A stretch of 64,000 bases of DNA, taken from Hydractinia symbiolongicarpus (lineage: Eukaryota; Cnidaria; Hydrozoa; Anthoathecata; Hydractiniidae). The translations under genes were made by a program, and so were the position numbers. Positions 2,672 through 56,410 of this stretch are shown in pieces. Position 1 is the stretch's first letter. Every line of letters starts with the position of its first letter. Where the stretch lies: positions 25,048,501 to 25,112,500 of the forward strand of contig NC_079880.1 in NCBI RefSeq assembly GCF_029227915.1, written 5' to 3'. The notes beneath the pieces were generated by a model that was not told the origin of the DNA, searched no databases, and was given only the letters and a program-made list of their open reading frames with translations.

Positions 2672-2932
2672 CTACAAAAGATGATATCCACAGATGCGAA
2701 CATAATAAGGGTATCGATAAGAATGTCCGCCAATTTTATACATTCTCCATATTCTTACGTAACGACAATGGTATCGCACATCCCGTGGGTGGACTGGGTT
2801 GGTTGATCTCCGTTGGGATCAGTCGTGTAGGCGATTATGTCTTCTGTGTTTTCCATCTATGAAATTGTTGTTGATTTCACAAACAAGAAGAAGTAGAAGT
2901 AGCATCAAGCACAAATAAATCAATTTTTTCAT
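2672..2932 (-). pseudogene. Secreted cationic peptide P1, one nonsense codon
   Basis: Reading from the ATG at 2932 gives the family layout in one frame to a TAG at 2672-2674: a leucine-rich signal peptide ending near the family signature EINN, a basic stretch, then a Cys-x24-Cys block (codons 56-81) with Tyr at +3, Trp at +7, Ile-Gly at +12/+13, Pro at +20 and Val at +23. The frame is broken only by a TGA at 2819-2821 (codon 38), between signal peptide and Cys block. There are no indels. The stop would leave just the signal peptide and a short tail, so it is a recent pseudogene, a null allele or an assembly error. A YAG acceptor lies upstream at 2971-2973. Confidence 0.8.
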
Positions 2933-4151
2933 TTCGATTGAGATACAACGAAAGTGTGATTTGATTATATCTATAATAGGATAAAACAGTAGATAATTAC
3001 GGGTGATTAAACATTCTGAATTCTTTTTTTTTAAAAAAATATGTTTTAATATCAGGCAAAGCAGATTGAATATTTCTTACATTTTGACACGAATAGTAAA
3101 ACTTAACAAATGTGTGGTGTTGTTGTATAATTACAAATTCTCGTTTAAATGTAAAGCCCTAGTTCATTTTTAACTTACAAACAAGCAGCATATAGGAAAA
3201 GGGATTTTTTAAGAATTCGTTGTTTCGTAAACATTTGTGGTCATTCTCAAAAAAATACAACATTCTCAAGGCGCTAAAAAATTGGTTTGTGCTACTATTG
3301 GCTAAAAAAGGGTGATACTTGCTATTTATATATTTGAACGCTTCATTCTTATCAATACAAAGTCGATTGCAAAAATGAATGTGCATCTAAATTTATAACA
3401 ACCGCACAGGTAGACAGATACACATTGTAACTGAAATGATTTCTAATTATGGCAAAAATATTTCAATTTCGACGGATCGTGCAATACCTGTCAAAAGTAT
3501 TGTTTCAGCTTTGACTACCTCTTCAAAAAAATACAAACGAAAAAAGATTCTTTAAAAATGAGTCTTTATCTTTTTTAGCCAGAAATAGCCTTCTTGTTTT
3601 TTCAGGTTACGCTTTTTACTCAAGCAATATTTTCACTCGAAAAACAATTTTGTTTGTTTTCGTTAGATGAAATTTCCTCGAACAAATTTTTTTTTCTAGG
3701 CAAAATTGTATATAAACTTACCTCCTCACTCGTGGACCTTCAGAGACTATAGTTAATAAACTTTCAAAACATAATCATATATAATTGATTCACATCACAC
3801 ACAAATATTTAGAAATCATTTAGTTTAACGACAGGATAATGCAACGGGCAATCGGACAAGATACGATAAGATAAAAAAGAAATTTATGTCACGAAAGTAA
3901 CTTGATGGCTTTGCTTATCGGCACGAAAAAACTAAAAAACAACTTATGATACCATCCTTTGTAAATCTATAGACACTCTTTTCATAGAAATCGATAATGC
4001 ACCTCACACGTAAACCGAAAAGTAACCAAAGTCAATGATACCAGATGTATATGTACATATGTAAACATAAAATAATCATGAAAAAAATTATACTAGTTTT
4101 TGACATCTTCTTCATAACATAATCAATATTTTGTATATCTATGAAAGAACT
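2933..4151. other. Intergenic, no gene seen
   Basis: It holds the 38-base presumed leader and the pyrimidine-rich acceptor of P1 (antisense to the + strand, 2971-2992). About 3950-4060 resembles 13770-13860 (shared runs around 'cacgtaaaccg' and 'ccagat'), so similar DNA lies on both sides of the Helitron block. An open frame at 3159-3386 has no support. Confidence 0.5.
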
Positions 4152-4730
4152 TCTCTATTATAATAGCCGTATTTTGTCTGTCTCTGCGCAACATGGCGGA
4201 GCAAGTAGCGAGAGACACACGGAAAATCCCCCCGGCCCTCCAGCTTCATTTCGGTTCAACGGCAGACCCCGTTTTTACCGGCTTCGTTTTCGCGCGCTCT
4301 GTTAAATTGGGCAGCTGTCAATTTTTATAAAAATAATAACCAATCAGCTAGCGCCATAAAATTAATTCTATTGTTATTATATTTGCCGCGATTATTATCG
4401 GATTGGCACTTTCGAAATTCTGTTAGCCTCCGTTTTAATGAAAATGCATCGGTATCTTGAATAGGATCCGGAGCAAGACGATTGTTGTGAAGGAAAGTTT
4501 CGTAACTATATTTCTTGCTTTTTATACCTACTTCTTAGAATAGAAGGCCTTTTTGATACACAGTCTTTTTTAAAACTATTACTACTGTTTTGTTTCTTTA
4601 CATTTCTTTGTAGTTTCCTTAATATTACCTAGCTAGCTAGCTAATCATACAAAAATACATCACTATTTTCTAAAGTGTTGTACCTAGCTAGCTATAACTT
4701 TTTTTATTTCATACTGCCTACTAGGGAAAC

Positions 4731-7700
4731 ATGAATCTCAACGACTTTCATTTGTTGGAGCATGACTATGCTAATGCATCCCCACAAAATCCTATATTTA
4801 ATATGAACCTCAACAATCATGTCCCTGTTCTTCATTTGTTTGAGCATAACTATGCTAATGCACCACCTCAAAATGCTAATTTAAATGCGGATCTCAATAA
4901 TATTGCCCATCGACTTCCTCGATTGCAAAATGATGTTGATGTTGCTGGTGCACAAAGGAGGGCTGAGCATGCTTTACGTGAAAGGGCAAGGGTGGCCAAT
5001 TTAACTTATGAACAAGCTCAACAACGTAGGGAGCAAGATGCAGTATGGCACAACCAAAGACGTGCTAATGAAAATGTTCATGAAGCTAATGCTCGCCAAC
5101 ATGTAGATGCACAACGTCATCGTGCGAATAGAGAAAATGAATTACCGGAGCAAGCAGCAGTAAGGCGTAGGGCAGAATTATTGCGTCATCGAGCTAGGGT
5201 TCCACGTTTCTTAAATTTAACCAGAATTAACAATGTCTTACCTCCTACACATTCTGCAGGTGAGTTTAATATTGTATGTGAGCATTGTGGAGCTATCAAA
5301 TTTAATAATGAAAATCATTTTAAGTGTTGTCACAATGGCAAAGTGGCCCTGCCTGCTATATTACAATTTCCTGCTGAAATACGTGAATTGTTAAGCAACG
5401 ACTCTGCCCAAGCTAAACAGTTTCGTAAGTATATCAGAGTATACAATAATGCATTTAGTTTTGCTTCTTTGTCAGCAAACATTCGACCACCACCAGGTCA
5501 TGGACCCCCCTGTTTTAGAATATGTGGTCAATTATTTCACAGGTATGGTGCTTTATTACCTGCTCAGAATGAAGTACCTAATTTTAGCCAATTGTATATT
5601 GTAGAGGCTGCAGCTGCCTTAAACATGCGTATTGAGAATCCGACACATGCTCATTGTAATCGTGAAACAATGCAGATAATTCAAGATGTTCTTAACAGGG
5701 ATTCTCCATATGCTGCAGCTTATAGAAATATGGCTGAAGTGGAACGTGAAGAAACAGCCAGAGCAGCAGCAGAAAACAGACAGCCTTCCGTTGTAAGTAT
5801 GGTAATGCGCGAGGGTAATGATCGCAGAAGGTATAATGCACCCTTGCATCAGGAAGTTGCCGCCATCTTTGTTGGTAATGATGGAGCACCTCCTGCTGCA
5901 AGAGATATTGTTGTTTATCCACGTAATCAACCTTTGCGGCAAATCCCTCATATATCATGCAATATCGATCCTATGATGTATCCCATTTTATTTCCACGTG
6001 GTGAGCCGGGTTGGGACCCAAATATGGCCCATGTCAGGGAGCATGCAACTGGAGTTAGAAATAGGCTAACCCAGTTGGAATATTATATTTACCGCATTGC
6101 TATTAGGCGAGAATTTTCTGCCCTTCATCTAGCAGGCAAATTGTTTCAGCAATTTTTAGTAGATGCATATGTTAAAGTTGAAGGCCAACGGCTTGCATTT
6201 ATTCGCCGAAATCAAAACCAGCTTCGAGCAGAGTCCTACCAAGGACTTCTGGATTACCTCCAAAATGCTGCAGATCAACGTAACTTACAAGCAGGTAATG
6301 TTGTTGTCTTGCCTTCCACCTTTTCTGGCTCACCCCGTAACATGCATCAGTTGTACCTTGATGCAATGGCATTGGTTTCAAAGAAGGGTAAGCCAGATTT
6401 GTTCTTGACTTTTACTTGCAATCCAAAATGGCCAGAAATTGTTACTAATATGTTACCTGGTCAATCTGCTTCTGATAGACCGGATTTGGTTGCAAGGGTT
6501 TTTAAATTAAAATTACTAGCTTTGAAAAAAGATTTAAAAGACGGTGTATTGGGTGTTCTGTGTGCACATGTAGATGTTATTGAATTTCAGAAAAGAGGTT
6601 TACCGCATGTTCATATGCTTTTACATCTATACAATGAGTTTAAATTACGAAATGCTGATGATATTGACTCATTAATTTGTGCACAGATTCCGGATCAAAA
6701 CCAAGATGCTGAATTGCATGATATAATAAAGTCATGTATGATCCATGGGCCATGTGGCCACCTTAATAATACATCTCCGTGCATGAAAGAGGGTGAGTGT
6801 ACTAAGCATTTTCCTAAGTAGTTTAATGACGGAACTGTTATAAATGTTGATGGTTATCCCATGTACCATCGCCCTGATAATGGAAGAACGGTAAGAATTC
6901 GAAACTTAGATGTTGATAATAGGTGGGTTGTGCCTTATAACCCTTTCCTATGTAAAAAATATATGGCACATATAAACTTGGAAGCGTGTGTGTCAATTAA
7001 AAGTGTTAAGTATTTGTATAAATATATTTACAAAGGTTATGATACTGCACACATAGAAATCAATGAGCGGATCGATCATGATGAAGTAACAACATTCTTA
7101 GATGCCAGATATGTGTCTGCACCTGAAGCAACTTGGCGTCTCTGTGAATTTCCTATGCATACTCAGAGTCATTCCATCATAAGACTTCCTGTTCACCTTC
7201 CAAATCACCAACAAGTGTTTTTTAGGGAAGGCAACGAGGCTGTTGCTGCTGACAGGGCTGAAAATTCTAAGACGATGTTAACAGCCTGGTTTCAATTAAA
7301 TCAGTAGGACCAGCATGCGCAACGACTTTTTTACACTGAAATACCTTACCACTTTGTTTTTCGGAATACACAACAACAAAAACGGTGGGTAGTTAGGCAA
7401 CGCGGTGCTGAAAAGATAGTAAGTAGAATGTATAATGCCAGTATCCGCGAAGGTGAAAGGTATTTTTTGCGCGTCCTTCTATTGCATGTCCCTGGTGCTA
7501 CGTCTTTTGACGACTTAAGACATTTCGAAGAAATTATTTATGCTTCTTTTAGGGATGCATGCTTAGCACGAGGATTGTTAGCTGATGATAATCTTTGGAT
7601 TCGCACCATGAACGAGTTAGTGGAATATGCTTCTCCATCTAAAATGAGAAAAGCGTTTTCTTTTATATTGATTCACGGTGAACCGAATAACCCACATGAA

Positions 7701-9308
7701 TTGTGGGAAACCTTTCGTGCTGCTATGATGGAGGATTACTTACGTCACCACCCTGAAGTACAGGCAGAACAAATGGTGCTAGGTAAAATTAAAGGGGTTA
7801 TTCAGCAATTTGGTAAGCGTCTTACTGATTTTGGTCTTCCTGCTTTACAGGAAGCTTTGCTTGATGATTTGCCAAATGCTGAAGAAATGAGGCAGGAGGC
7901 TGTAAATATCAGGCCTTTGTTAAATGCTGAGCAGGTTCATGTAGCTGATTCTATTATAAATGCCGTCACCAATAGTAACATTAATGTTGCCAATATTTTC
8001 TTCCTAGATGGGCCAGGTGGCACAGGTAAAACTTTTACATATAATTATATTATTAAGGAAGTTATTGCGAGAAATCTGTGTGTTGCTACTTGTGCCTGGA
8101 CAGGTATTGCTGCCACATTATTGCAGAATGGTAAGACTGTCCACTCTCTTTTCAAGTTACCAGTCCCTGTTTTAGACGGCTGTACATGTAATATCAAACC
8201 CAATAGTGATCATGCAGCATTTTTAAGAAGACAGGTCATCATTATATTTGATGAAGCCAGCATGATACCTAAATATGCTTTGGAAGCTATTGACAGAATG
8301 TTTAGGGATATATGTAATAGTGAAATTCCCTTTGCAGGTAAAGTTATTCTTCTGGGAGGAGATTTCCGTCAAGTACTCCCTGTTGTCAGAAGAGCCGGAC
8401 CTGCACAAATTGTAGAAGTTTGTTTGAAAAGCTCAGAACTCTGGCACTTGACTCGAATTTTCCACCTCCACACGAACATGAGAGCTGGAGAAGGAGAGCA
8501 AGTCTTTGCTGAATTTCTTTTAAACCTTGGTAGTGGTCGGGTGCCACAAAAACCAGATGATCCAAATCAAGGTTGTATTGAAATTCCCCATGAATGTGTT
8601 CTGCAACCTAATGAAAATATCGTTACTTCTATCTTTAGTGAATTAGATGATGTGGAATTTTCACGTTGTGTCATCTTAACCCCAACAAACGAAGAAGCGT
8701 TGGAAATAAATGAACAAATTTTGAATCAAATTCCTGGTGATACCCGTACATATTACAGTATCGACTCTGTTGTTTCGGATGATCAAGAAGAAATTGATTT
8801 ATATCCCATGGAGTTTATTAATTCCTTAACTCCAAGTGGTATGCCACCACACCAATTAAATGTCAAAGTTGGATCTGTTGTAATGTTGTTGAGAAATCTG
8901 TCCCTTAAAGACGGTCTTTGTAATGGTACAAGGTTAATGGTTCGTAATCTGCGTGCAAATGTTATCGATTGTGAAATTCTTACCGGTATTCGTAGAGGTG
9001 ATCGTGTGTTAATTCCGAGAGTGTCCCTCTGTCCAAATGATACAAATCTACCCTTTCAAATTAAACGCACCCAGTTTCCTTTAAGATTGTCTTACGCATT
9101 GACTATAAATAAAAGTCAAGGCCAAACTTTTGAGAAAGTTGGTATATTTTTACGTAGACCTTGCTTTAGTCATGGCCAACTTTATGTTGCATTTTCACGT
9201 GCTCGGTCATTTCAAGCAGTTAAAGTACAGGTTGTTAATACTTTTAAGCAAGGTTATGTAGGAGATAGGTGTTTTACAAAAAATATTGTTTTTCCACAAG
9301 TATTATAA
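4731..9308 (+). pseudogene. Helitron Rep/helicase, two in-frame TAG codons
   Basis: A single frame of 1,526 codons runs from the ATG at 4731 to the TAA at 9306, broken only by TAG at 6819-6821 and TAG at 7305-7307; there is no frameshift. Order of parts: a basic N-terminus with arginine-rich coiled segments (about 60-150), the Helitron-like N domain, the nuclease block with FTCNPKWPE (about 560) and the HUH motif GLPHVHMLL (His626, His628), then the catalytic tyrosine segment YLYKYIYKG (from residue 761). The Pif1-type helicase follows, with Walker A GPGGTGKT (Lys about 1100), a Walker B-like FDEAS, GGDFRQ, and C-terminal motifs INKSQGQT and YVAFSRAR. All catalytic motifs are intact, so the only visible damage is the two amber codons. 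Length fits animal Helitron proteins. Confidence 0.92.
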
Positions 9309-15301: not shown

Positions 15302-15959
15302 AGTATTTAGGGGTAGCGTAGTTAGTGATTTTCATTTGGGTACTTTGTTGTTCGAATTTCTCTTAATTTAAAACTAACCTAGCACAGCAACTATCTTGTT
15401 GTTTTTTATCAACACGAAATAATTGATTATCTATAGGATAATACAAAGTGGGAGTGTGGAAACACAAATTTTGGCAATATATAGTTAGGAATATCTTGTT
15501 GCGCGCGAGACTTGGTGTGAATCATGGCAAATTTTTTAACGTATTCACGACCCGGATCAACAACGACTGTTACTTATATTTTAAGACAAAAATCTTTTCT
15601 CTAAGTTAGTTATACTGAAGATATAACAGGGACTTATAAAAATATATTCTTTTACAGACTGACAAATTTGTAGGTGTACAACTGTAGCTATAGAAACTCG
15701 AACCTTGGTTACATAAAGGCGCGCGTAATTATATATATCCAAATGGCCCATGATGAATTTGAAATTTTTATTATTGAAACTGTCATCTCGATTAGAATAT
15801 TTAAACAGTTATTTTGCAGCGCTGAAAACTTTATTTAGGGATTATTCACAAATGATGTTAAACATGTTTTCAGGACTCTCCCCCTCCCCCTCCATCTACT
15901 CGCGTCAATTTTGGTTTACTTCTTCCCTCTGAGTTGACGTAATCTTTTGAAAAGATCCC
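15302..15959. other. Intergenic, no gene seen
   Basis: No supported gene or element. A 60-codon frame at 15750-15932 has no recognisable feature. Confidence 0.45.
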
Positions 15960-17255
15960 GCTGCTTAAGTTGAGATACACATTTGAACTCAAGAAAAATT
16001 TATTGGTTTCACGTGAGCAAAACTACAAAAATCCAAAATAAACAAAATGGAAGGATTTTCACAGGCTACCGATCACATTCATTATAAATATTTCCCTGAG
16101 AATCATTTACTTAAATTAGAGAAAAATTGTAAAGGCTGATGTCACAGTAATGTCACCTCCCACCCCTCTCCAGTCAACCAGAGTGAACTGTAGCATACCC
16201 TTCCTCACGCTCTTCTAATATTTGACGTCATGTGTGAACATATTTCCTAACTGTACACCGTTACGCTGTTTAAATAAAAACATCTGTTGTAGACACTCTC
16301 ACAAAACTTCATGTCGAACAATGTTAGAAGCTTCAACCGAAGACAACCATGTCTTTACAACAGAATGAACTGTGCATATTTATATTTACATGTCCTCTGA
16401 GGAGCCTGCTTATATCATTAAAATTACAACAAATCAGGAACTATATGGAAAAAACAATTTTTGTCAGAGAAATATTAAGAAACAAAAAAATATATAAAAC
16501 TAGAAGTGAGCCGTTGTTTAAGTAAGACCGCTTTGGCACGCAGAAAATCACAATTTCGTTCGGAGGTTTTATTTAACGTAAATGTAGTAGCTTTAGTCTC
16601 ACGGTTGCAAACATTGTTATGTGGCAGTCCTGTTAAAGCTCATATTTCAGATAATGAATATGATTTCTAAAATACAGGCAAATAACCAAGAAACGTCAGT
16701 CAATATCCTAAATTTTTATAAACTAAAAATGCGTGTGTTTGTCATCAACCATGTTGACATTTACGACCATAATACGGACGCACAAAATGATAATGGCCAA
16801 TTTTAATCCATCACCATCGTTTTATATAACGACAATTAGAAGGGATTGGTGGTGCCAAGTATTTTCGTCCATGATGTCCACGTTTATGTTTTCCACGTTC
16901 TCCGTCTGCAAATTGATTGTTTATTTCACAAAGCAAAAGAACCAATAAGAGCACACATATTAATTTCCTCATTCTGATTGGAGAAGAATTTATTATATCT
17001 TGTATATCTAAGAATGAATATATAAAATAATTGAATTAAGCCGAGGTACGTTCAACTACTGAAGATCTAATTAAAGAGCTATTTAACCATTGCGGTAAAA
17101 AACTTAAATTAGGGGAACACCTATATTTGCAACCCAAAACTAGCGTTAGAGACTGGAGAAAATTCAACAATAGATAGACAAATTTCCTTACAGAGATACA
17201 CAGCAAAGTTTTATTTCTAGAATATTCCAAATTATTATGCCGCTCTGAAAAAAAT
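15960..17255. repeat. Segment D: inverted duplicate of about 38.99-40.2 kb
   Basis: Read on the minus strand this segment follows 38990-40200 in order: 'agagcggcataataa' and 'tctagaaataaaact' at the outer end, the P2/P7 peptide gene, a block around 'acattgttatgtggc', and 'tcacgtgagcaaaactac' near 16010. The two copies differ by many substitutions and small indels, so this duplication is older than the B/C inverted pair. It carries pseudogene P2, whose partner P7 is open. Confidence 0.75.
16745..16972 (-). pseudogene. Secreted cationic peptide P2, one nonsense codon
   Basis: From the ATG at 16972 the frame gives a signal peptide (MRKLICVLL... to CEINNQFADG), a Lys/Arg/His/Gly-rich linker, the APPIPSN stretch shared with P7, and a Cys-x24-Cys block (codons 47-72), ending at the TGA 16745-16747. 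A TGA at 16811-16813 (codon 54) interrupts it one codon after the conserved Trp; P7 has ATA at that codon. It also replaces the conserved Val at +23 with Gly. P7 at 39245 is its closest relative in sequence and flanks. The acceptor is at 17008-17010, giving a 35-base leader, the same length as in P7. Confidence 0.82.
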
Positions 17256-17586
17256 TCTACGTGTAATACGAAACGGTAAATGCAACAAAAGAACTACTTT
17301 CAAAAAACACTTTCAATACACTAACATAGCCTTTACATCTACACTGCTCCTTGTATCATTATACATTGTCAGTTTATTACATTAGCTCCACTCTGTTATT
17401 TACAAAACCTACCTCTTGATTTGACAACTTTCGAACCAAACTGATCACGGATAGGAGACTGCCATGTCAATTTATAAGATGAACATAGTCTCTTATCCCA
17501 CAGGATGTTTAGCAAAATTCATCAGTGACCCATGCCTCAACACGGCCAGAAGATCTATGTGTTTTGAAAGGGGCATGTTTGTCAGC

Positions 17587-22903: not shown

Positions 22904-22905
<2 letters not shown>

Positions 22906-22979
<74 letters not shown>

Positions 22980-23078
22980 ACAACAGCAACAGCAACAACA
23001 ACAACAACAACAACAACAATAACAACAACAGCAACAACAACAACAACAACAAAAACAACAACAACAACAACAACAACT
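22906..23078. repeat. (ACA)n microsatellite upstream of P3
   Basis: About 170 bases of ACA repeats with a few GAC, AGC and AAA interruptions, reading GTT in the sense direction of P3. The orthologous spot upstream of P6 in B (32879-33005, GTT) and in C (52928-52982, ACA) has the same repeat at different lengths, so the array predates the three-way duplication. Poly-valine frames through it are not genes. Confidence 0.95.
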
Positions 23079-33005: not shown

Positions 33006-33035
33006 ATAACATATTTGTATTTTAGACTCCTTTAA

Positions 33036-37286: not shown

Positions 37287-37351
37287 TTAGTAAATATTGC
37301 CCTACTTCCTCTAACAAAATACAAAAATTATAGTGAACATTTCAACAAAAA

Positions 37352-39182: not shown

Positions 39183-39209
39183 TCACTTATTTTATTTATC
39201 CATTCTTAG
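39183..39209 (+). promoter_or_regulatory. Conserved splice acceptor before P7
   Basis: A pyrimidine-rich tract ending CATTCTTAG at 39209, 35 bases before the ATG. The P2 copy keeps ATTCTTAG and exactly 35 bases to its ATG, despite many other differences in the flank. Confidence 0.6.
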
Positions 39210-39244
39210 ATATACAAAACATACTAAATTTTTCTCTAATTAGA

Positions 39245-39481
39245 ATGAAGAAATTAATATGCGTGCTCTTAGTGGTTTTTTTACTTTGTGAAATAAACAA
39301 TCAATTTGCATACGGAAAACGTGGATGGCATAATCGTCGACATCATGTTGCACACGGACGAAAATATTTGGCACCGCCAATCCCTTCTAATTGTCGTTAT
39401 GTAAAACGATGGATATGGATTAAAATTGGCCATCTTCATTTTTTGCGTCCGCATTATGTTCGTATCTGTCAACATGGTTAA
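39245..39481 (+). CDS. Secreted cationic peptide P7, open
   Basis: 78 codons to TAA at 39479-39481. Signal peptide MKKLICVLLVVFLLCEINN to about residue 24, a His/Arg-rich linker (RGWHNRRHH..HGRKY), an APPIPSN stretch, then Cys50-x24-Cys75 with CRYV, Trp at +7, IG at +12/13, HLHF, RP at +19/20, VRIC and a short tail QHG. Signal peptide and Cys block are shared with P2, P5 and P8. High positive charge plus one predicted disulfide suggest an antimicrobial or signalling peptide, but no known family was recognised. It lies in the 5.3 kb that segment C has lost, so it is single-copy apart from dead P2. Confidence 0.85.
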   Translation: MKKLICVLLVVFLLCEINNQFAYGKRGWHNRRHHVAHGRKYLAPPIPSNCRYVKRWIWIKIGHLHFLRPHYVRICQHG

Positions 39482-41445: not shown

Positions 41446-41533
41446 TCCCCGTTCCCTCTATACGGCTAATTCGCAATGCATTATGGTAGTTGTATTCCGC
41501 GAAAACGTAAACAAACCATTCGTAGTAACAAAA

Positions 41534-43195: not shown

Positions 43196-44884
43196 TTACT
43201 CACACTGTTGTTCTGTAATGTTGCTGTGCATGAAAGTGAAATAAAAGTGTGTTAGCTCAGGCAAAGTAATTCTGTTCCATTTTTCCTTTTGAAAAACTAT
43301 TGTTTCCACATGTCGGTCAACTTTTGTATAAACAATAAAATCAATTTCATTGACTTGTGTTACTGCCATCACACCTTGACATTGGTGAAAATAATTATGT
43401 CTTTCTTTGAGTTTTGGCTTGCCATTCGATATTTGTAAAAAAAAATTTTTATCTTTGCATGCGTCAGAAATAGAGCAATCCTTTTTTGAATATGGGCACT
43501 TCACCTCAATCAATCGAGCATTCCCATTCAAAGTTGTTGCGCCATCAGGACTTGCACCTAACCACGGCCATTTTGGATTAATAACGAAACCACATTTTTC
43601 GACTTCAATATTTTTCTCGGTTTGATACCAGTTTAGAGCATTAACTTCATTTTCTAAGCCCCATTTGCAGGCCTCTGATGTAAAGTTTTTATTTTTATTT
43701 AGACATTTTTGTAATATGCTTTTTGGATGTATATTTTTTCTTCTATTTATAATAGATCCAAAATTGGATGATGTTATGCGTTTCTTTCTTTCTGTGTACC
43801 ACATATCACATTTATACTGAGTACATGTGGATTTTTCTTTGTCTCGAACTTGTTCGGCATTGACATGAATGAAATTGTTTACAAATGACTTTTGCTCATC
43901 TGATAACTCTGCTATTTCTGGTTCAAAGTCAAGAGCCTGCAAAAATAAATTAACTGTCGGACGTAATTCAACTGTTTCACTGTTTGTCTGTTCAAAATTA
44001 AATTCTTTTATAGATGTGTCATAAAATGATGATGGTTTATAGTCATTTCCTTGTAATAAATATGCCATTGAAGTTCCTTGCCCTATTTCAAATAAGTCTG
44101 TCGCTAATTTTTTGACTTTTTCGGTTGAGGGCTCATGTGCAAACAGTGGTGTAGAACAAAATTTTCTATTTCCTGTGACCAACAGTCTTTTGCGACTTTC
44201 ATTTGTGTCTTTCGTAAGGTCTGCTTTCTCGAATGCCATTGCAGAAAATTTTATTGGTGCAGAATTTGCACTTTCTCCAGGTACATGCCATTTTTGTAAC
44301 AAATCTGTGCATGTCTTGTCATCAGGGACAATTTTTAAGTCCAACTGTTTGTATTCAACCAATTGAAATAGAACTGCTGCGACATGCTTACAGCATCCTC
44401 CTGCTCCAGCTTTACATAAACATTTCGCATACAAAATATCACCACTTCTTTGACACAGGTGGACATAAACAGAATATTTTTCTCTTTTCATGGAAGCAGC
44501 TACAAAACATTTCACAAGAAAAGTTAATTTTTCAGCCATAACATTACTTTTAACTCTCACTTTCTTCACGTAGCTCTCCTTGAATAGTTGGTATCCAAGA
44601 ATTTTATGCTTTGTAGCACCCTTCGGCTTGCTATCACAGCTATTTCCAAGAACTAAATATTGGTGAATTTTCTCCTGGGTGATCGAAGGCATAGCTGCAA
44701 GATCAGTTGACCATTGACTTATATCTTCGTGTGTTCTTTCCTCCACTTCTTCGTCCCTCTCGGCATTTGTTAATTCTTTAAAAACAGGTCTTGGTACCAC
44801 ACAAGAGCTTTGAGAAAAGCTAGGCCCAAGATCTGTAGAGCTTAAAATTATATCTAAATCTGTATCCTTATTTATTACTTCCAT
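43196..44884 (-). CDS. SWIM zinc-finger / YqaJ-type nuclease protein of the ISL2EU-type element
   Basis: 562 residues from the first ATG at 44884 (the frame extends 13 codons further without an ATG). An acidic N-terminus is followed by a SWIM zinc finger CxCx7CxH (C155, C157, C165, H167; CLCKAGAGG...CKH) and a C-terminal lambda-exonuclease-like YqaJ domain with GLENE (E412), GASPDG (D447), IEVKCP (E460, K462) and YFHQCQG. The catalytic D-ExK set is intact. Lambda-type exonucleases resect DNA ends; in this element class the protein probably works on transposon DNA with the transposase, but its exact role is not known to me. The stop codon at 43196-43198 lies 90 bp from the transposase stop. 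Confidence 0.88.
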   Translation of the reverse strand: MEVINKDTDLDIILSSTDLGPSFSQSSCVVPRPVFKELTNAERDEEVEERTHEDISQWSTDLAAMPSITQEKIHQYLVLGNSCDSKPKGATKHKILGYQLFKESYVKKVRVKSNVMAEKLTFLVKCFVAASMKREKYSVYVHLCQRSGDILYAKCLCKAGAGGCCKHVAAVLFQLVEYKQLDLKIVPDDKTCTDLLQKWHVPGESANSAPIKFSAMAFEKADLTKDTNESRKRLLVTGNRKFCSTPLFAHEPSTEKVKKLATDLFEIGQGTSMAYLLQGNDYKPSSFYDTSIKEFNFEQTNSETVELRPTVNLFLQALDFEPEIAELSDEQKSFVNNFIHVNAEQVRDKEKSTCTQYKCDMWYTERKKRITSSNFGSIINRRKNIHPKSILQKCLNKNKNFTSEACKWGLENEVNALNWYQTEKNIEVEKCGFVINPKWPWLGASPDGATTLNGNARLIEVKCPYSKKDCSISDACKDKNFFLQISNGKPKLKERHNYFHQCQGVMAVTQVNEIDFIVYTKVDRHVETIVFQKEKWNRITLPELTHFYFTFMHSNITEQQCE

Positions 44885-45145
44885 TTCGACTTCTTTCACT
44901 CCTAAAACCTCACTAACTAACAATATTTAAATGTTTACATCAATAACACGGGTTTTGGATAAGGGAGATAATGATTTTCTTGAGGAGATTTGAAAATTAT
45001 CACAAACAATAACGGCTTTTTGTTATTATCGCCACAATAAAAAGAATGCTGTTATTTATTTACAAACTCTCGCTTCTGGGAGGGAAAACTGTAGAATACA
45101 ACTACCATAATGCATTGCGAATTAGCCGTATAGAGGGAACGGGGA

Positions 45146-45779
45146 ATTGCACTGATAAATTTAGAAGAGTCAAATTAAACTTAAAAAGATTTTTTTTACG
45201 GTGCCTATGGACCTTCTTTAGGGAGTCATGCGCATTAAAGGAGTCAAAATGAATGCTCAAATGACTCCTTTTAAGTTGTCATGATTAATGACTTCTTCTT
45301 GTCACTCATCTCGAACTATAATTGACTCTTTTAAAGGAGTTAATTTTTCTATGACTCTTTTAATGTACTCCCCACAGGCACCCCATCAATGAGTCCCTAA
45401 AGGGTTTCAATGAGTAATAATAGTTCCCGTTACGCGTCAATTGCGCAGAAAAAATGATCAGTGATAGAGATAGAGAAATGGGGATTCTGGTGCAATCGCG
45501 CACGCACATCATACATTAAATGAGCAACTGCACTAGAAATGATGTCACGCTTCATTGCACAATATAGGGAAATTCCCTAAATTCCCTTCAATCCCGAATT
45601 CCCCGAAACCGACAATTCCGGGAAATCCGATAAAATCCAACGCATGCGCAATAGCGACTAACGGGAATAATGCTGACATCAACAAAAATAGAGATTGCGC
45701 AATTGAGTAGTGGAAAGTCCCATACTCAAGACTGCACCAGAAAAAATGCTATTTGAGCTCTAAAATCTATATAATAAAT
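45146..45779 (+). other. 5' flank of the polymerase element (B copy)
   Basis: Non-coding; repeated inverted at 49324-49960. It holds several inverted runs of 'gactcctttaa' type (45230-45380) and palindrome-rich 'aattccc/gggaaa' motifs (45570-45640). Copy 3 has a related stretch at about 59050-59500 ('agatagaaaaatg', 'gcgcacgcgca'), so this is part of the element's own 5' end. No clean terminal repeat was found. Confidence 0.5.
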
Positions 45780-47337
45780 ATGAATGTTCATACCTTGAAA
45801 CAATTACGCGATGAGGCAAAGGCCCGCGGACTCAGGGGATATTACAAGCTACGCAAAGCCGACCTTGTTGCTTTATTGGATCAACCTCCAGCACCAACTC
45901 TCCCAGAGGATGTACCTCACAGACCAACCAGGAGGGCCGGGCGACGAAACCCAGTCATGCAAGTGACTATTCCACCAACGCCAGAGGCCATGGACATCTT
46001 CGAGCTCCAAGAGATGGTGACGACTCGTTCAGTGGTAAAGAGTAAACCGCGTGATGGTACAACTGGCTAGTGGACGCTGTTCCCGAGTCTATAAAGAAGG
46101 GTTTCAATAGCGCATATAACACGTTCAAGAACAATGTGATGAACCTCTACAACAGGATCACGGGCGCGACGCTTCATGACGAGGTTGAAGAAGAGGCAAG
46201 GGCGGATCATGCCAAAGACGAGCAGCAGCCGCACCAAGATTTCACGCCTCAAGAACATCAACATGCTCACCATAAAACCTTCCGAAGCTTCCGCATCCCT
46301 GGCATAGACGGTACGGATGTTGATGGGTACTTGAACATGATGAGATCAGACGTGAGAACCCTGATCGAGAACCAGGTTAAAGACATGGAGTCTGCAAAGA
46401 CGCAATTCTACCTCTGAATCCAGTGGAAAAAGCCGGTGGATGATACCAGCACGTTCATCGAGGTGGATGGTACCAGCGAGTTCATCGAGGTGGATAAGGT
46501 ATTCCACAGCAACATGACGCCAATCTTCCAGGTTAGCGACGTGGACGAGGTGCTGGATACGATGTTTGCCCAGATCAAAACGTATGTGGAGAACCCAGCG
46601 CTCCCTAAGAGCGGCTTTACTAATAGCAAAATCATGCACCTCGACGTAGACTTCCACAAGCTCAAATTGACGAGAGGCTCCTCATACATTGAAGCACCAA
46701 AGTGGATATCCACTAAGAAGGCCATCATTAATCCACAGAACAACGATGAAGAGTGTTTCAAGTGGAGTATCATAGCAGCGCTACATCATAAGGAAATAAA
46801 ATATAATCCAGAACGCATAAGCAAGCTTCGACCATTTGCGGATGAGTATAATTGGCATGGCATAGAGTTTCCCACAAGCATCAAGGAGATCTCCAAGTTT
46901 GAAAAGAACAACTCCAACATCGCAGTAAACGTCTTATACGTAACGGATAAGAAGACGATCAATATCATACGTCGATCTAATCATAATATTAAGCGCGAAA
47001 AGCACGTTAATCTGCTCCTCCTCACAGACAATAAAAGACGCACTATGTAACTATCAAAGTCTCTCACGACTACTTGGTGGAGAGGTATCAAAAAATAAAA
47101 ACGCGATGCACTTCTGCACGAATTGCCTTCACGCGTTCCCCGCAATCGAGCCGCGTGACAAGCACTATGGTTACTGCAAAGACAATGAGGAAGTCAAGAT
47201 CGCGATGCCGAGCGAAAAGGAAAAGTGGCTATACTACAAGGATGGTCAGCAGCAATTCGAAGTACCCTTCGCCATCTATGCAGATTTCGAGAGCCTGTTG
47301 ATCCCAATGAAAGAGAATGCGAAGGAGACCAAGACGC
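45780..47337 (+). pseudogene. Family-B DNA polymerase (Polinton/adintovirus-like), 5' part, B copy
   Basis: It starts MNVHTLKQLRDEAKARG, a SAP-like small DNA-binding motif. A frameshift near 46051 and a TGA at 46415 break the frame; another stop follows at about 47048. After the N-terminal region come a C2H2-like finger (CTNCLHAFPA...H...YC, about 47115-47175) and the first exonuclease motif YADFES (about 47277-47292). The sequence then stops at the centre of the inverted structure, so the rest of the exonuclease and the palm are missing. Such polymerases replicate the element by protein priming. Up to 46768 it is nearly identical to the C copy and shares its frameshift and TGA. Confidence 0.85.
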
Positions 47338-48334: not shown

Positions 48335-49323
48335 ACTCCACTTGAAACACTCTTCATCGTTGTTCTGTGGATTAATGATGGCCTTCTTAGTGGATATCCA
48401 CTTTGGTGCTTCAATGTATGAGGAGCCTCTCGTCAATTTGAGCTTGTGGAAGTCTACGTCGAGGTGCATGATTTTGCTATTAGTAAAGCCGCTCTTAGGG
48501 AGCGCTGGGTTCTCCACATACGTTTTGATCTGGGCAAACATCGTATCCAGCACCTCGTCCACGTCGCTAACCTGGAAGATTGGCGTCATGTTGCTGTGGA
48601 ATACCTTATCCACCTCGATGAACTCGCTGGTACCATCCACCTCGATGAACGTGCTGGTATCATCCACCGGCTTTTTCCACTGGATTCAGAGGTAGAATTG
48701 CGTCTTTGCAGACTCCATGTCTTTAACCTGGTTCTCGATCAGGGTTCTCACGTCTGATCTCATCATGTTCAAGTACCCATCAACATCCGTACCGTCTATG
48801 CCAGGGATGCGGAAGCTTCGGAAGGTTTTATGGTGAGCATGTTGATGTTCTTGAGGCGTGAAATCTTGGTGCGGCTGCTGCTCGTCTTTGGCATGATCCG
48901 CCCTTGCCTCTTCTTCAACCTCGTCATGAAGCGTTGCGCCCGTGAACCTGTTGTAGAGGTTCATCACACTGTTCTTGAACGTGTTATATGCGCTATTGAC
49001 ACCCTTCTTTATAGACTCGGGAACAGCGTCCACTAGCCAGTTGTACCATCACGCGGTTTACTCTTTACCACTGAACGAGTCGTCACCATCTCTTGGAGCT
49101 CGAAGATGTCCATGGCCTCTGGCGTTGGTGGAATAGTCACTTGCATGACTGGGTTTCGTCACCCGGCCCTCCTGGTTGGTTTGTGAGGTACATCCTCTGG
49201 GAGAGTTGGTGCTGGAGGTTGATCCAATAAAGCAACAAGGTCGGCTTTGCGTAGCTTGTAATATCCCCTGAGTCCGCGGGCCTTTGCCTCATCGCGTAAT
49301 TGTTTCAAGGTATGAACATTCAT
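47338..49323 (-). pseudogene. Family-B DNA polymerase, C copy with internal deletion
   Basis: Starting at 49323 it repeats the SAP-like N-terminus and the same frameshift and TGA as the B copy, then at about 48335 jumps to a later part (QIFMKTFDDPENPK). It continues with the exonuclease region (HNFSGFDAYLF, RFIDSCRFMPSSLEKMA), a zinc-ribbon-like cysteine set (CQCCADTC...CKAC), VYPYEYMDGWRRF, KGISDNDYEHA, and after frame shifts the RGIRGGI segment at the centre. The polymerase palm is absent. Together with the B copy it covers different parts of the gene, but neither can be functional. Confidence 0.83.
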
Positions 49324-51355
49324 ATTTATTATATAGATTTTAGAGCTCAAATAGCATTTTTCTGGTGCAGTCTTGAGTATGGGACTTTCCACTACTCAAT
49401 TGCGCAATCTCTATTTTTGTTGATGTCAGCATTATTCCCGTTAGTCGCTATTGCGCATGCGTTGGATTTTATCGGATTTCCCGGAATTGTCGGATTCGGG
49501 GAATTTGGGATTTGAGGGAATTTAGGGAATTTCCCTATATTGTGCAATGAAGCGTGACATCATTTCTAGTGCAGTTGCTCATTTAATGTATGATGTGCGT
49601 GCGCGATTGCACCAGAATCCCCATTTCTCATCTCTATCACTGATCATTTTTTCTGCGCAATGAACGCGTAACGGGAACTATTATTACTCATTGAAACCCT
49701 TTAGGGACTCATTAATGGGGTGCCTGTGGGGAGTACATTAAAAGAGTCATAGAAAAATTAACTCCTTTAAAGGAGTCAATTATAGTTCGAGATGAGTGAC
49801 AAGAAGAAGTCATTAATCATGACAACTTAAAAGGAGTCATTTGAGCATTCATTTTGACTCCTTTAATGCGCATGACTCCCTAAAGAAGGTCCATAGGCAC
49901 CGTAAAAAAAATCTTTTTAAGTTTAATTTGACTCTTCTAAATTTATTAGTGCAATTGCTTTCAGAAAAAAAAATTAAGAAACAACAAGATATGTAAGACT
50001 AAAAGTGCGACGTTGATTAAGTAAGACCACTTTAATACACAGAAAATAAAAATTTCGTTTGGGAGTTATACTAAGCATAGGTGTAATAGCTTTTAGAATC
50101 ACGCTAGCAAACATTGTTATGTGGCGGTCTCTTTATCTCTCAACTCTCATGAAGCTACTATTATATTATTACTTTATATATGTTCCGATATATGTCACAA
50201 ACACACATCGGTATAAGTTAAGGCGAATTATAAGCAAATTACGGTGTCCTTTTCACGTGCACATGCGGAAGAATGTACACAAAATTGTGTCCTATAACGT
50301 TTCCAAAAGAGGACAACTTCGACGTTCGTTGATGTTGTTCTTAAACATTTCGGATTAAACTAAAGTTTATTATTTATACTAAGTAAAATGTTTTTGCTAT
50401 AGCTATCTTGTTGCTGTACATATTTCAGAACACCGACGGGAAATTTCACTGGTCATCTTATTTAAAACTCTCATCGGAAAGATTTTATCCCCATAACTTA
50501 CTTTCGCATTATCTAACATTAAAAATTTTAGCGAGATAACCTCTTTTGTGATTGTGTAATTTATAATTTTTTTAATTTGTCGCTGAGAAAATTTTTGGGT
50601 GTGAAACCAGTGTCCCACAGCGGGTGGAAAGTTTTTGTTACCCTAAAGTCGTAATGAGCTATGCAACAACATTTTTGCTAAAAAATAAAAAAAAAATACG
50701 TATATGAAGAGTAAATTAGATTTTTGCTGCTGATTCGTCCAGCTGTATGTAATATTTTTTTTGTATTTCGTTGGAACTGAAGAACTTCACTGAGATGGTA
50801 ATTTTGTAACTTTTGGTACCACCACATATTGTAATACCTCATTACATCTAATAATTTTAATGTTCAGGAATTTGGAAGAGTTGTCTTCAATAGCGAAATT
50901 TATGTTTGTATGATAGGAATTCAGACGTTTACATCTGGCGAATTTATCTTTCCTCTTGTGTAAGTATCCTCCATAAGTCTCTTTTAAAATTTTGGTTTTA
51001 ATGGAAAAACTGCATCTCTTTCAATTTTTTTTATGAAACAACTTGAAAATGGACCATCCATAGATACACCATCAATTTGCTTATTTAACTTATCGTTAGC
51101 TGCAAAGGTGCATTTAATTTAAGAATTGTTCAAATATGATATTGACCATTTCTTCAGGATTTCCCCATTTTCCCCTCTACCAACTTTCGTCAAATTTAGT
51201 TTAACCCACCCTCTAAGTTGACGCCAGATTTTAGAAAGAGCACTCTTTTTGCGAAGTTTGATACATATTCAAACTCAAGAAATATATACTGATTTCACGT
51301 GAGCAAAACTGCTCCCAAACGGAAATCCAAAATAAGCATCATGATAGACTTTTTA
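49324..51355. other. Right-arm flank, no gene seen
   Basis: Mirror of 45146-45779 and 40070-41445. Open frames at 50059-50358 and 50403-50618 mirror those of B and have no recognisable domain. Confidence 0.5.
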
Positions 51356-52882
51356 CACAATGCTTTGTCTTGATACACGGTAATCAGTATCTCAAGTTGT
51401 TTATCTGATTTGAGATCCGTTGGTAAATATTTATAGTTGGTACGAATAGTACCACAACAAGAAATACCATGAAGCAACAAATGCTCAAGAAGGGGTACTG
51501 ATGTGTAATAGTTGTCAATACATATTTTGTGATTTTTCTTTGATAAGTCACTAGTTAAGTAAAGTACTATTTTTTCACAATTTTTGCATTGGTAAATGCT
51601 AAACTTAGATATGTAACCACCATTATCAGCTCTAGCCCATAACTTATACCCACGTTTAATAGGTTTCATTGGGTTGTATTGTTATAGGCTTGACTGACCC
51701 TGGAACAGTATCATGCTCTCGTCAATACTTATGTTTTTATTCATGTTATAAAGTTTTGCAAAAGTTTTATTCAAACCATCAACAAATGGTTTAATTTTAA
51801 ACACTTTATCTTTATTGTCTTTTGGTATGGTTGTGTTATCATTCACGTGAAGATTGGATAGTATTTGGAAGAATCGGTTTCTAGGCATTTAGCTATATAC
51901 AATGGGAATATTCACATCATGACTGTTGTTTCAGTATAAATATATGGAAAGTGAACTGTGGTGAGCAATAGGGGAGGTTGGAAGTAGTGTCCACAATAGT
52001 TTTTTTTTTGATACACCATGATCTATCTTGATTTACATTGATTGGTACTGGTTGATGCTGCTGAATACCTTGATAATCAATCAACTGAGATGTGCTGCTT
52101 TCATCTACTTCTTGATTGCTGTTGTCCAAGTCATTAGATTGATCTGATTCGTTTTGCGATTATCATTCGCTGTCTTATTGTGATGAAGATTCTTCTTCGA
52201 TAAGTTCTTAATCAGAACTCTTTTCTAACGCAGCTGTATTCACAGTGTTTTCAACTTAGAAGGAAACATCACTTTCCTCTATTTCTGATTCTTCATCAGC
52301 ATCAAAGGCATTGTCAATGGGCTGAGCAGTACATGCTTTCTTTGCAAAAGGCATTTTTTTATAATACTTATTCACTAAAAAAATTCAATCATCAAAGGAT
52401 GTAAATAGAGAATATAGTGGTATGCAACAATATTAGATTAGCAGTCGTTTTGCTACGTAAATAAAAAACATTTAATAGAAAAAAATGAACCTAAATGTCA
52501 TGTGGGAACCTGAAGGGCCTTGTAAACTTTTGCTAATATCAGTGCAAATGTTTCTGAGAAGCTACATCAAACAACTACCAAAAGCCACAATATAGGTACC
52601 TGAATCTCCAAAAAAATTCTCAAGCTCCACATATTTGCAGAAAAAACACAGTTTTAAATAAAAGTGGCATGTATTCAACATGCCTGCCAGCAACAATCAT
52701 TTCATAATAAATGCGCTTAAAATTCGAATTTTCATAATGGCTACTAATGTTTATCATTTCAGTGCATTTAAGAATAAAGTGAGTACGGAGTCCCGTCAGT
52801 TCTAGCTGCTAATTTTTAAAACAGTGGACTGGGAACATATAAAAACATTATGGGACCCTGAAGCCACGTCGGTATCGAAAGT
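51356..52882 (-). pseudogene. piggyBac transposase fragment, right arm (5' part only)
   Basis: The reverse counterpart of 33036 to about 34770: acidic N-terminus, MPRNRFFQILSNLHVND, SIDESMI, KPTKRGYKLWARAD and ICIDNYYTS are present, followed by a break at the deletion junction (about 51360). It shares the TAA codons before MPRNRF and before QYNP with the left copy, and has further lesions of its own (about 20 codons missing after the Cys in IYQCKNC; a deletion near the N-terminus at about 51970). The flanking TTTAA is at 52882-52886. Confidence 0.85.
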
Positions 52883-52927
52883 TTAAAGGAGTCTAAAATG
52901 CATATATGTTACTAACTTGAATTATTG

Positions 52928-52939
52928 TAACAACAACAA

Positions 52940-52981
<42 letters not shown>

Positions 52982-52982
52982 A
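52928..52982. repeat. (ACA)n microsatellite, right arm
   Basis: The shortest of the three orthologous arrays (compare 22906-23078 and 32879-33005). It is followed by the same 'acttactttagcgcaaacctg' context as in A. Confidence 0.93.
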
Positions 52983-54085
52983 CTTAATTAACTTACTTTA
53001 GCGCAAACCTGCTTGGTATAGTTAACGAGCATTAAACTTTGTTACTATTTAAATGTTTTCTTAACCGCTTAATTTACCACAATAATGAATACAACTTTAA
53101 TTTAACTTTCTGCACAAAAAGTTCCTCTTTTAATTTTCCGACACCAGATTTATCAACTTTTCCCGAATTTCAACCTTTATAAATCATCCAGAGTGTTACA
53201 AAGATGATGGAACAAGTGACACATGAACCAAAATCTTTTGCTTGCAACGCGTATGTTTACCTTCGTGCTACCCATCTGATGTTATATGATGTACATTAAA
53301 CAGGAATTATTTTTTTTGCGGCATAACATGAACACGATATACTCAACGCCCTTATACTTTGATGTAGGTGTTCCACCTGAGCCTGGATATAACAATGATG
53401 CAACGTAGTCTACAGCCTATAGTTTATTTCTGTTCTCTACACGCTAAAACAATCCCCTTTAATACAAAAACAGCGCGAACGTCACCATATTAGCAGCTTT
53501 TGTGGCCCTATGAGTAATGAAGGCGGTTGTCAACAACTCAGTATAACTGTACAAAATTGTTTGCTACCGAAGAACTTTCATTTATAAAAATTATATGACA
53601 AAAGCACCAAAAGTTTACCACAACCTCACTTTGTTGCCACTTTAAATTTACCCGTCGCAACAAAATGGATAAGAATACATCGCATTTGATATTCCTGCGC
53701 ACTTTCATAAATTTTGTGTTTCCGTTACGTGACGCTGCTTTCGCAGTCACATAGACAGACGACGGCTATTATTAAAGAGCAGTGTTTATAATTGCTATAA
53801 TTGCTGGGACTAACTTAGAATTTTGTCCTTTTTAACAATATTCTACATCTAGAATTGGAGCTGTACAAAACAAGTTTAAAAACTTGTTTGATCGACTATA
53901 ATTTTAGAAGGAGTCTATAGTACACACTGTCTATTTGCATGAACATGTTGTTTACGTTGCAATGGTTGAAAAGGCGTAGGCTGTATTTTTATTATAAAAT
54001 ACTTCGTTTTGTGTGTTTTATTTTCAAGCTATCCACGCCATTATCCCAAGGCTTGTTTTGACAATGTTTAAAAAAGATATGCTTT

Positions 54086-56188
54086 TCTGTTTTAACATTC
54101 TATCTGTTAGTCTAGTAGCGTTTGTTTGCGTTAAATAGTAACATCTAACTATTTTTCAATCAAAAGAGACATTAGAATTCATAGAATAATCAATGGTAGT
54201 TACCAAGAAGTAGGAGAAGATAACAACATGTAATAGTCATCGAACCTCGTGTAATGCTGTCACGGTTACACTATTGTGAAACTATACTTTTCTATATTAA
54301 TAATAGCTGTATTCTCTCTGCCCACAAGAAAAAACGTCTTGCTAACGAAGTACGAAAAGCGATATATAAATTACGGGCGGCCCTATGGATATTTCCACCG
54401 TGTACCAGTATTCCTATATTATTCAACACAACTTCAGTGAGTGCAATGTTTACCAACAAATTAACTGTTTTTTCTTTATCAGCAAGGTATAAAAAATTAA
54501 TTCTGAGAATTTAATCAGCTAAATCTGGCTCACAGTGTTTTTCCGCCACAAGCCTTCTTTCTATACTGAGCATCCTCTACAAAAATTTAGGAAGCCTTGG
54601 CTCCCACCCTAGACTTGCGCGAACTTGATTTTGGCGGAAAGTTGTTCCAGATGAGATTTATGAGGTCTGGAATGTCTTACTTTTCACAGAAATGGTATAG
54701 ATATAATTTAAATTAATGTGGAAAAAGTATGAAGTATGAGTAGGGAATAAGCGGGCTTTTAACAGTCCATTTTTATTTATAAAAAAATCTTTAAAATTTT
54801 TATTAAGTCACAGAAAACAAAAATGACAACGTTCTATTTTTATAGTAAATTACAGTCTTGTCGCAAGGTAGAGGAAAATTGGTTACTTATGACAAAATAT
54901 AGCTTTTGTTGTCTTGGCAACGCGAGAGCATAACGAAAAACCTTTATTAATACACCTTCTACACATTACATGCTTATTATGTTCAATCTTAACGTCGATA
55001 AGGAAGAGGTTTGATAAACAGCAACAAGAGATGACAAACGATGTGAGGACTGCATTTCTTCATATAACCTTCCCAGTGTTAATGTATACCGCCATTGTCA
55101 AATTTATGATAATTTACAAGGCTTGTAATATTTATCTATATTAGGATATACACAATTTGAACTTGGCAATGTTTACAGCACACTTTGGTCATTTAGTTGT
55201 ATCTGTGCCAATTGTTGCTGAAATTGCCACGACTCTTTCCCAAATATTATTGCACGACTTTACGTGGATTATTTCGCAAATTTGTTTTTTTCGAATGTTC
55301 AAATAGCACGTTCTAGGCACTACTGAGTATGCCGACGTATAAGCGAAAGTTTCTTTTAGGCATTTCAAGCTCCGCGGTATTAGTGAGTTAAAAGGTCTTG
55401 CCAACTTTAAAAAATACCTCAAAAACCGCCATTGGGCCGAATTATTCGCACTGATTGTAGCTACACCCACATAGACATAAAGAAACATAAATGACGTTAT
55501 GGTTTTATGGATATTTGGAAAACAGAAGATATTGGTAAGCCAGAGAAATGGTAAAATAAAGAGCCAAGGTGATATTTATTGCGCTGTTTGTAAGAATTTT
55601 TTTTTTCATTTCTTTTAAATAAAAGTCCTGGTAACTCACAAAACATATGTAGGCATAATTTTTAGAAATATCCCATCAGAAAGCCGTTGTTTTCGATGCT
55701 ATGTTTTAAAGAGACCTGGGGTTACCACTGTGTAATATGAATAAAACAAACCATGAAATACAAACATAAACTTTTTTGTAATATATCTATCTACAAGAAA
55801 GAGCTAGACCTTGCGTCATACAATGACGAAAGACGCAATACCACATTTGTGCAACAGATCTACGCTTCTGCAAAGTTACAGTTTTCGCAGCCCGCTGCTT
55901 GTGAAGTGTTGACCAGTCGGTTGTTCAACACTTTATTTCCACTGTTTGTTACATAATGCATGTCTTAATCTTGGACTCCATATTGGTAAAAGACGTAGAA
56001 AATACTCTACATTTGTGTACTCTACATTTATTTTGTAAATTGCTAGTTTGACTTCAAAGTTATATTTACTTTTGTAACGAAATAAAATATAAAGCTATTA
56101 TTTCTTTAAAATTTAAAATTAGAAGTGTGTTTACAACATAACGCTATAACATTTACAGTGCCAACTTTTTATACAGTGTCTCTTGTAA
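54086..56188. other. Segment C outer part, no gene seen
   Basis: 54650-55710 and 55840-56188 match A directly. It contains the unoccupied MITE site (about 55945) and no copy of P4. Frames at 54254-54514, 54914-55144 and 55189-55488 have no recognisable domain. Confidence 0.5.
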
Positions 56189-56410
56189 TTAGATACAAAC
56201 TCGAACATGTTTGGGACGTCGAAAATGGTAATGACCATAAGAAATCACCTCCCACCGTATCTCATAGTAACAATGTAGCGGTGTGTGGGAAGCTCTACGT
56301 CTACTTCGACGTTGTCGACGCATAGTCTGATTTTTTCCCTCTGTGCAATGGTTGTTGATTTCACAGAGAAGAAGACAGATCAACAGCAAAACACATATCG
56401 ACTTCTTCAT
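56189..56410 (-). CDS. Secreted cationic peptide P8, open
   Basis: 73 codons from the ATG at 56410; the in-frame ATG 11 codons upstream is not used, for the same reason as in P5. Signal peptide MKKSICVLLLICLLLCEINN, cleavage probably near residue 25, then an Arg-rich tract (MRRQRRSRRR, 30-39), then Cys47-x24-Cys72: CYYE, Trp at +7, YG at +12/13, HYHF, RP at +19/20, VRVC. Compared with P5 the signal peptide and Cys block hardly change, while the basic tract is rearranged by substitutions and small indels in multiples of three. Acceptor at 56450-56452, 39-base leader identical in length to P5. Confidence 0.85.
   Translation of the reverse strand: MKKSICVLLLICLLLCEINNHCTEGKNQTMRRQRRSRRRASHTPLHCYYEIRWEVISYGHYHFRRPKHVRVCI

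Follow-up and report, generated by a model that had tools for sequence, protein, structure and literature searches.

What do the eight short, similarly built loci encode that are scattered over 64,000 nucleotides of the genome of the hydroid Hydractinia symbiolongicarpus (contig C6, positions 25048501-25112500, guanine-plus-cytosine content 35.86%; referred to below as the window)? The original prediction took them for an undescribed family of secreted cationic peptides with two cysteines. We find that they belong to one larger cluster, in which the C-terminal cysteine block of the open canonical copies is under constraint and is predicted to fold as a β-hairpin, and we see about an even chance that this is a lineage-restricted family of secreted cationic β-hairpin host-defence peptides that has expanded in tandem. 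The loci of the window are as follows:

2672-2932, minus strand: P1, canonical copy with a disabling stop codon in the linker.
16745-16972, minus strand: P2, canonical copy with a disabling stop codon inside the cysteine block; conserved Val replaced by Gly.
22608-22859, minus strand: P3, open, 83 amino acids, member of the second subfamily; its block cysteines enclose 28 residues.
25041-25294, minus strand: P4, canonical copy with a disabling frameshift that separates signal part and block.
30087-30314, minus strand: P5, open canonical peptide of 75 amino acids.
35526-35760, plus strand: P6, P3-type copy, disabled by a stop codon and a frame change, first cysteine lost.
39245-39481, plus strand: P7, open canonical peptide of 78 amino acids.
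56189-56410, minus strand: P8, open canonical peptide of 73 amino acids, which pairs with P5.

The motif C.Y...W....[IY]G......P..[VG]..C is present without mismatch at the six canonical loci (P1, P2, P4, P5, P7 and P8). The full blocks occupy positions 2690-2767, 16757-16834, 25059-25136, 30093-30170 and 56195-56272 on the minus strand and 39392-39469 on the plus strand. Exactly 24 residues separate the cysteines in all six, P2 having Gly for Val; the spacing of 28 in P3 and the absence of the first cysteine from P6 were also borne out, as was the count of four open (P3, P5, P7 and P8) and four disabled (P1, P2, P4 and P6) loci. A tblastn search with P5 alone recovers the other five canonical loci of the window, with expectation values (E) of 1e-38 to 2e-11. 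A profile of the six canonical loci recovers five of them in full (E 1e-35 to 3e-37) and P4, because of its frameshift, as two pieces (E 5e-17 and 1e-13); everything else in the window stays at noise level (next rows at E 1.3 and 0.97).

P3 and P6 resemble each other in sequence. Sequence homology with the canonical copies was not shown: at P3 the profile left a trace of 2.8 bits (E 6.2), and a comparison of the P3 type with the canonical type by hhalign gave a probability of 2.7% (P 0.017). Since the canonical profile fails to recover them, the kinship of P3 and P6 with the canonical copies rests on locus and layout. The claim of a family of eight thus stands as to a real gene family, but P3 and P6 form a distinct subfamily, whose shared descent with the others lacks sequence proof. 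Members of the P3 subfamily have a block of 30 residues in the same design and a linker rich in Pro and Thr; the canonical linker is strongly basic and rich in Arg, His and Lys. A signal peptide is predicted by hydropathy and layout alone, and in the canonical copies it is probably cleaved after an invariant Gly ([AT]xG↓K in four of the five open ones). Past this presumed cleavage site two cysteines are present in each of the five open canonical copies and three in P3, the third being residue 26, ahead of the linker.

The count of eight is right inside the window, but the cluster continues past it. In total, it comprises 13 copies (ten canonical and three P3-type, seven of them open) in approximately 111 kb of one chromosome. 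Outside the window lie the open canonical copies O1 and O2, two canonical copies with a frameshift (O3) and a stop codon (O4), and the open P3-type copy Q3. Whole-genome searches covered 480.9 Mb in 76 contigs and scored only the best candidates. With P5, the ten rows at E ≤0.001 corresponded to the ten canonical copies, from C6 25,044,288 to 25,151,725, and O1 retrieved, at E ≤10, nine canonical copies in ten rows together with one row on contig C12 (E 1.4). P3 found the three P3-type copies, at C6 25,071,111, 25,084,026 (in two pieces) and 25,154,649, as well as two weak rows elsewhere, with internal stops (E 0.036 and 0.049). The family therefore forms a single cluster in the 480.9-Mb genome, with only weak rows elsewhere.

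Do these copies behave as genes? Open reading frames (ORFs) over 212.5 kb were scanned by layout only, i.e., for a hydrophobic signal-like start, a length of 55-130 amino acids and a basic C-terminal block with exactly two cysteines 18-34 apart. The scan retrieved seven ORFs, identical to the seven open copies. Since the thresholds were chosen with the copies in view, it is not this recovery but the control that counts as evidence: eight first-order Markov sequences of equal length gave 0, 1, 0, 1, 0, 2, 0 and 1 matches.

Codon-based maximum likelihood analysis in our own implementation, applied to the five open canonical copies (short sequences with branches up to 2.25 and an uncertain linker alignment), gave a ratio of nonsynonymous to synonymous substitution rates (dN/dS, or ω) of 0.161 for the signal part, 0.818 for the linker and 0.310 for the block. 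A single ω for all parts was rejected (twice the log-likelihood difference, 2ΔlnL, 41.7 with 2 degrees of freedom), as were a block ω of 1 (24.0, P ~1e-6) and equality of linker and block (17.7); a linker ω of 1 was not rejected (0.66). When the disabled P1 and P2 were added, the values became 0.147, 0.850 and 0.430, and a block ω of 1 was still rejected (17.3). A ratio of about 1 across the cysteine block, named beforehand as an outcome that would speak against the family, is rejected for the open canonical copies (ω 0.31).

Pairwise comparisons can be set beside this result. Between P5 and P8, one of the two pairs singled out in advance, dN/dS is 0.12 in the block and 0.51 in the linker, with five changes in 16 synonymous sites versus three in 62 nonsynonymous sites of the block (Fisher P 0.008). 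Block values between subfamilies range from 0.28 to 0.63 in the six pairs giving a value, and pairs that include a dead copy gave 0.82 (P2/P7), 0.69 (P2/O2) and 0.75 (O1/P1). Over the whole P3/Q3 gene eight changes in 58 synonymous sites are found versus seven in 191 nonsynonymous sites (P 0.009; dN 0.04, dS 0.15); the block alone, with three nonsynonymous and two synonymous changes, is too small to judge. The open canonical copies taken together, the P5/P8 pair and the P3/Q3 gene as a whole thus show clear constraint, and none is visible in P7/O2. An acceptor-like TAG, a putative splice acceptor, is located 30-40 nucleotides upstream of the ATG in nine of the ten canonical copies and is missing from O2; in P3 and Q3 the acceptor-like site precedes the ATG by approximately 11 nucleotides. 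Upstream of P3, a long TTG repeat (22905-23076) ends approximately 45 bases before the ATG and approximately 34 before the acceptor-like AG.

AlphaFold2 was run on the alignment of the five open canonical copies with O1 as the target. The model contains a helix across the signal part that extends through the linker at low confidence (predicted local distance difference test, pLDDT, <50 for residues 32-51), and strands at residues 56-67 and 70-81, with a mean pLDDT of 94 for residues 61-70 and 92 for residues 71-80. As judged from the strand limits, residue 56 is in register with residue 81, giving 12 residues, a two-residue turn (Gly68-Arg69) and 12 residues. P3, folded alone, has strands at 53-66 and 69-82 (mean pLDDT 78-84), and its turn is formed by Arg-Gly. 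The same limits place both cysteines at the predicted hairpin ends in register (56/81 in O1 and 53/82 in P3). In the prediction the block is a symmetric hairpin that begins and ends with a cysteine, so that the constancy of the spacing can be read as a matter of hairpin register; on this reading, the spacings of 24 and 28 would represent the same symmetric two-strand antiparallel hairpin, P3 being two residues longer per strand. The proposal of a folded hairpin under selection agrees with both the O1 model and the block ω of 0.31.

The net charge past the presumed cleavage site is +11 to +19 in six open copies. The blocks carry +1 to +8 in the five canonical copies, +10 in P3 and +9 in Q3, and Arg exceeds Lys in the blocks of all seven open copies. 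Apart from the cysteines, seven block residues are invariant in the five open canonical copies: Tyr3, Trp7, Gly13, Phe17, Pro20, Val23 and Arg24. Such residues, together with purifying selection, would suit a specific contact, and it is conceivable, if rather unlikely, that the peptides are secreted cytokine- or hormone-like signalling ligands, the hairpin binding one host receptor and the linker being a processed or disordered pro-segment. Five of the seven fall on the assigned cysteine face, a share that chance could explain (Fisher P 0.11 with the cysteines counted), and clustering of invariant residues on one hairpin face was rejected. The several paralogues, the rapid change and strong positive charge of their linkers and the large number of dead copies fit effector families better than they fit a ligand, and no repeated-peptide precursor layout was seen in the open copies.

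We also looked for known relatives. No protein matched the profile of the five open canonical copies at E ≤10 among 254 candidates out of 5.77 billion proteins, in a search that required shared exact five-residue words, passed over models more than 1.75 times as long and used the canonical query, not P3. For the THAP-DDE transposase query at 41534-43102, the same database returned proteins of H. symbiolongicarpus, Hydra, Rhopilema, Dendronephthya and Exaiptasia. The canonical peptides thus appear to be missing from the annotated H. symbiolongicarpus proteins, with no annotated relative detected in those other cnidarians, which suggests low expression or overlooked short genes. A lack of homologues with the same spacing had also been named beforehand as an outcome that would speak against the family; outside the cluster none was found in the protein database, the genomes of other cnidarians not being part of the search.

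Pfam returned no family over the cut-off for six open precursors (73-83 amino acids; Q3 left out), the rows under the cut-off being for P8 alone (DUF2840, E 0.02, and NLBH, E 0.11). Comparison by fold with solved structures gave a best E of 2.9 for the O1 model (51 rows at E ≤10) and 1.1 for the P3 model (205 rows); such a comparison says little about an isolated hairpin, given its small size. By sequence, O1 retrieved six solved structures, the best of them (E 0.044, a nuclear-receptor DNA-binding domain) not significant, P3 and the P3 block retrieved none, and the canonical profile three (best E 1.8). The window has no match in Rfam. The canonical form is thus without a significant match in Pfam, the protein database or solved structures, in keeping with the claim that it belongs to no known family. 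No such family was found in the accessible parts of the literature on antimicrobial, hairpin or secreted peptides of Hydractinia, Cnidaria and Hydrozoa; the portion of the Podocoryna genome paper available to us lists 162 machine-predicted antimicrobial genes with families not described, and the word antimicrobial is absent from the corresponding portion of the Hydractinia genome paper.

Short, apparently secreted products of clustered cnidarian genes might also be nematocyst (venom) components of the hydroid. Venom peptides known from cnidarians tend to contain more cysteines; the mature canonical peptide would have just one pair, and the canonical form is without a family match, so that we regard a venom role as improbable.

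The closest likeness in design is to β-hairpin antimicrobial peptides such as arenicins, thanatin, tachyplesins and capitellacin. As the mature Hydractinia peptides would be, these are cationic with Arg over Lys, and are located C-terminally in a longer precursor; their single antiparallel strand pair with cysteines placed for closure has its counterpart in the predicted Hydractinia block. The arenicin hairpin has Arg-Gly at its centre, which P3 resembles. There is no sequence match between the two groups, and the precursors of arenicin and capitellacin carry BRICHOS, which is not among the Pfam results for the six open precursors. In the accessible part of a 2026 review, the class is defined by a single antiparallel strand pair, at least one intramolecular disulfide, a net charge of +1 to +8, Arg enrichment and antimicrobial activity, all members have 11-25 residues, and the words cnidaria, hydra and jellyfish are absent (PMC13001179). 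The Cys-to-Cys block of the Hydractinia peptides, with 26 or 30 residues, is too long for this range, and we therefore do not file it as a member of the class.

In hydrozoans themselves, the antimicrobial families of Hydra are, according to the part of the source available to us, clustered, lineage-restricted paralogues without homologues in Hydractinia or Clytia, hydramacin and HyCWR having six cysteines (PMC10945409). The arminins, periculins, hydramacins and HyCWR of Hydra are short, secreted, clustered and lineage-restricted, as the Hydractinia peptides appear to be, but hydramacin and HyCWR differ by their six cysteines from the one pair seen here. Neither Pfam nor the protein database (some Hydra vulgaris proteins included) gave a match to Hydra arminin, periculin or macin, no comparison with the named peptides having been made. 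Defensins have six cysteines and three disulfides, versus two cysteines past the presumed cleavage site in the five open canonical copies and three in P3. In crustacean anti-lipopolysaccharide factors a basic two-Cys hairpin is the binding element inside a fold of approximately 100 residues; the hairpin is alike, the larger surrounding fold is different, and Pfam and PDB gave no significant match.

Host defence at epithelial surfaces would be the likely role. Each open canonical gene would encode a signal peptide, a change-tolerant basic linker and a C-terminal 26-residue block folding as one antiparallel β-hairpin, its ends closed by two cysteines in a putative disulfide; the cationic peptide would be attracted to anionic microbial surfaces, where the hairpin would insert or bind. 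By analogy with what the accessible sources tell of hydrozoan antimicrobial families, it is most likely their profile that is seen in a cationic, apparently secreted, clustered, lineage-restricted family with a predicted closed hairpin, and the block would act like a β-hairpin antimicrobial peptide though longer. We infer the disulfide, the processing, the expression and the antimicrobial action of the Hydractinia peptides.

Several observations weigh against a host-defence role. The young pair P7/O2 shows no constraint, with an overall dN/dS of 0.95 and six nonsynonymous versus no synonymous changes in the block (sites too few for a claim of positive selection, which we rejected), and six of the 13 copies are dead. 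No annotated protein of H. symbiolongicarpus matches the canonical profile. Confidence in the O1 model drops where the hairpin would close (mean pLDDT 73 for residues 51-60 and 78 for 81-82), and the overall predicted template modelling score of the model is low (0.29; 0.31 for P3). The P5 and P8 blocks carry just +1 and +3. No significant difference in hydrophobicity separates the two hairpin faces in eight blocks on two scales (P 0.07-0.98), so that facial amphipathicity was rejected for every block on either scale. In many antimicrobial precursors the pro-segment is acidic, unlike the basic one seen here. Finally, block constraint could equally reflect a single specific binding partner.

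The dead copies, the lack of an annotated protein, the unconstrained P7/O2 pair and the loss in O2 of the acceptor-like TAG kept by the other nine canonical copies would also be expected if the cluster had been functional until recently and were now decaying or silent. We consider this unlikely: seven copies are open, and constraint is seen in the block of the five open canonical copies and of P5/P8 and over the whole gene in P3/Q3.

If host defence is retained, a bolder and still doubtful extension would be a hydroid-born family of single-disulfide β-hairpin effectors with ongoing turnover, whose ring size changes only in register (24 to 28) and whose linker is free to drift, i.e., an antimicrobial locus specific to the lineage, whose natural hairpins with one disulfide exceed the 11-25 residues of the class. 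Research on stem cells and on self/non-self recognition uses Hydractinia as a model, and according to the available text Hydra antimicrobial homologues were not found in it (PMC10945409). If the proposal holds, a home-grown clustered hairpin family would reveal how effectors of this kind originate and diversify, and a simple, synthesizable hairpin in a tractable animal would allow direct tests by peptides and knock-outs.

Four of the window copies lie in longer duplicated units:

29870-31143: unit with P5, 79% alike to the unit with P8.
55981-57275: unit with P8, 79% alike to the unit with P5.
15830-17506: unit with P2, 73% alike, inverted, to the unit with P7.
38757-40320: unit with P7, 73% alike, inverted, to the unit with P2.

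There is also an inverted duplication with pieces 89-94% alike (31795-34773 with 51357-54087 and 40075-41446 with 49953-51358). One of its arms is approximately 5.3 kb longer and holds P6 and P7; it follows that there was either a loss in one arm or a gain of peptide genes in the other. Directly after P6, at 35806-38077, are three tandem copies of a unit of approximately 750 bases.

Mobile elements are interspersed with the peptide copies. A Helitron at 4725-9308 has Helitron_like_N and a PIF1 helicase in one frame with two in-frame stops. The open THAP-DDE_Tnp_4 transposase at 41534-43102 adjoins an open YqaJ/alkaline-exonuclease-like frame on the opposite strand (43199-44926), and a DDE_Tnp_1_7 frame, which we take to be of piggyBac type, also lies between peptide copies. 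Further frames between the copies may be read as Polinton-like; the only one of them scanned, 46418-47050, matched no Pfam family. A 99% inverted repeat of 1.6 kb (45145-46768 and 48335-49956) is read as the repeated part of a Polinton-like element, and 59532-61827 has diverged similarity (64-74%) to it.

Elsewhere in the assembly, contig C2 (39.96 Mb) contains, approximately 9-27 kb from its start, a tandem Artemia-type mitochondrial genome with a period of 15.84 kb. The only COX1 matches found in the assembly are its two tandem copies, and the protein of the copy compared is 100% identical to that of Artemia franciscana. Mitochondrial gene order and strands on C2 are arthropod-like. An arthropod host was nevertheless rejected, and the cnidarian host assumed in the original prediction stands; a search for arthropod cuticle domains gave none, although its controls gave nothing either, and a search for the GFP family, equally uninformative, came back empty. 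This tandem is probably carry-over of brine-shrimp food that was joined to a chromosome contig in assembly.

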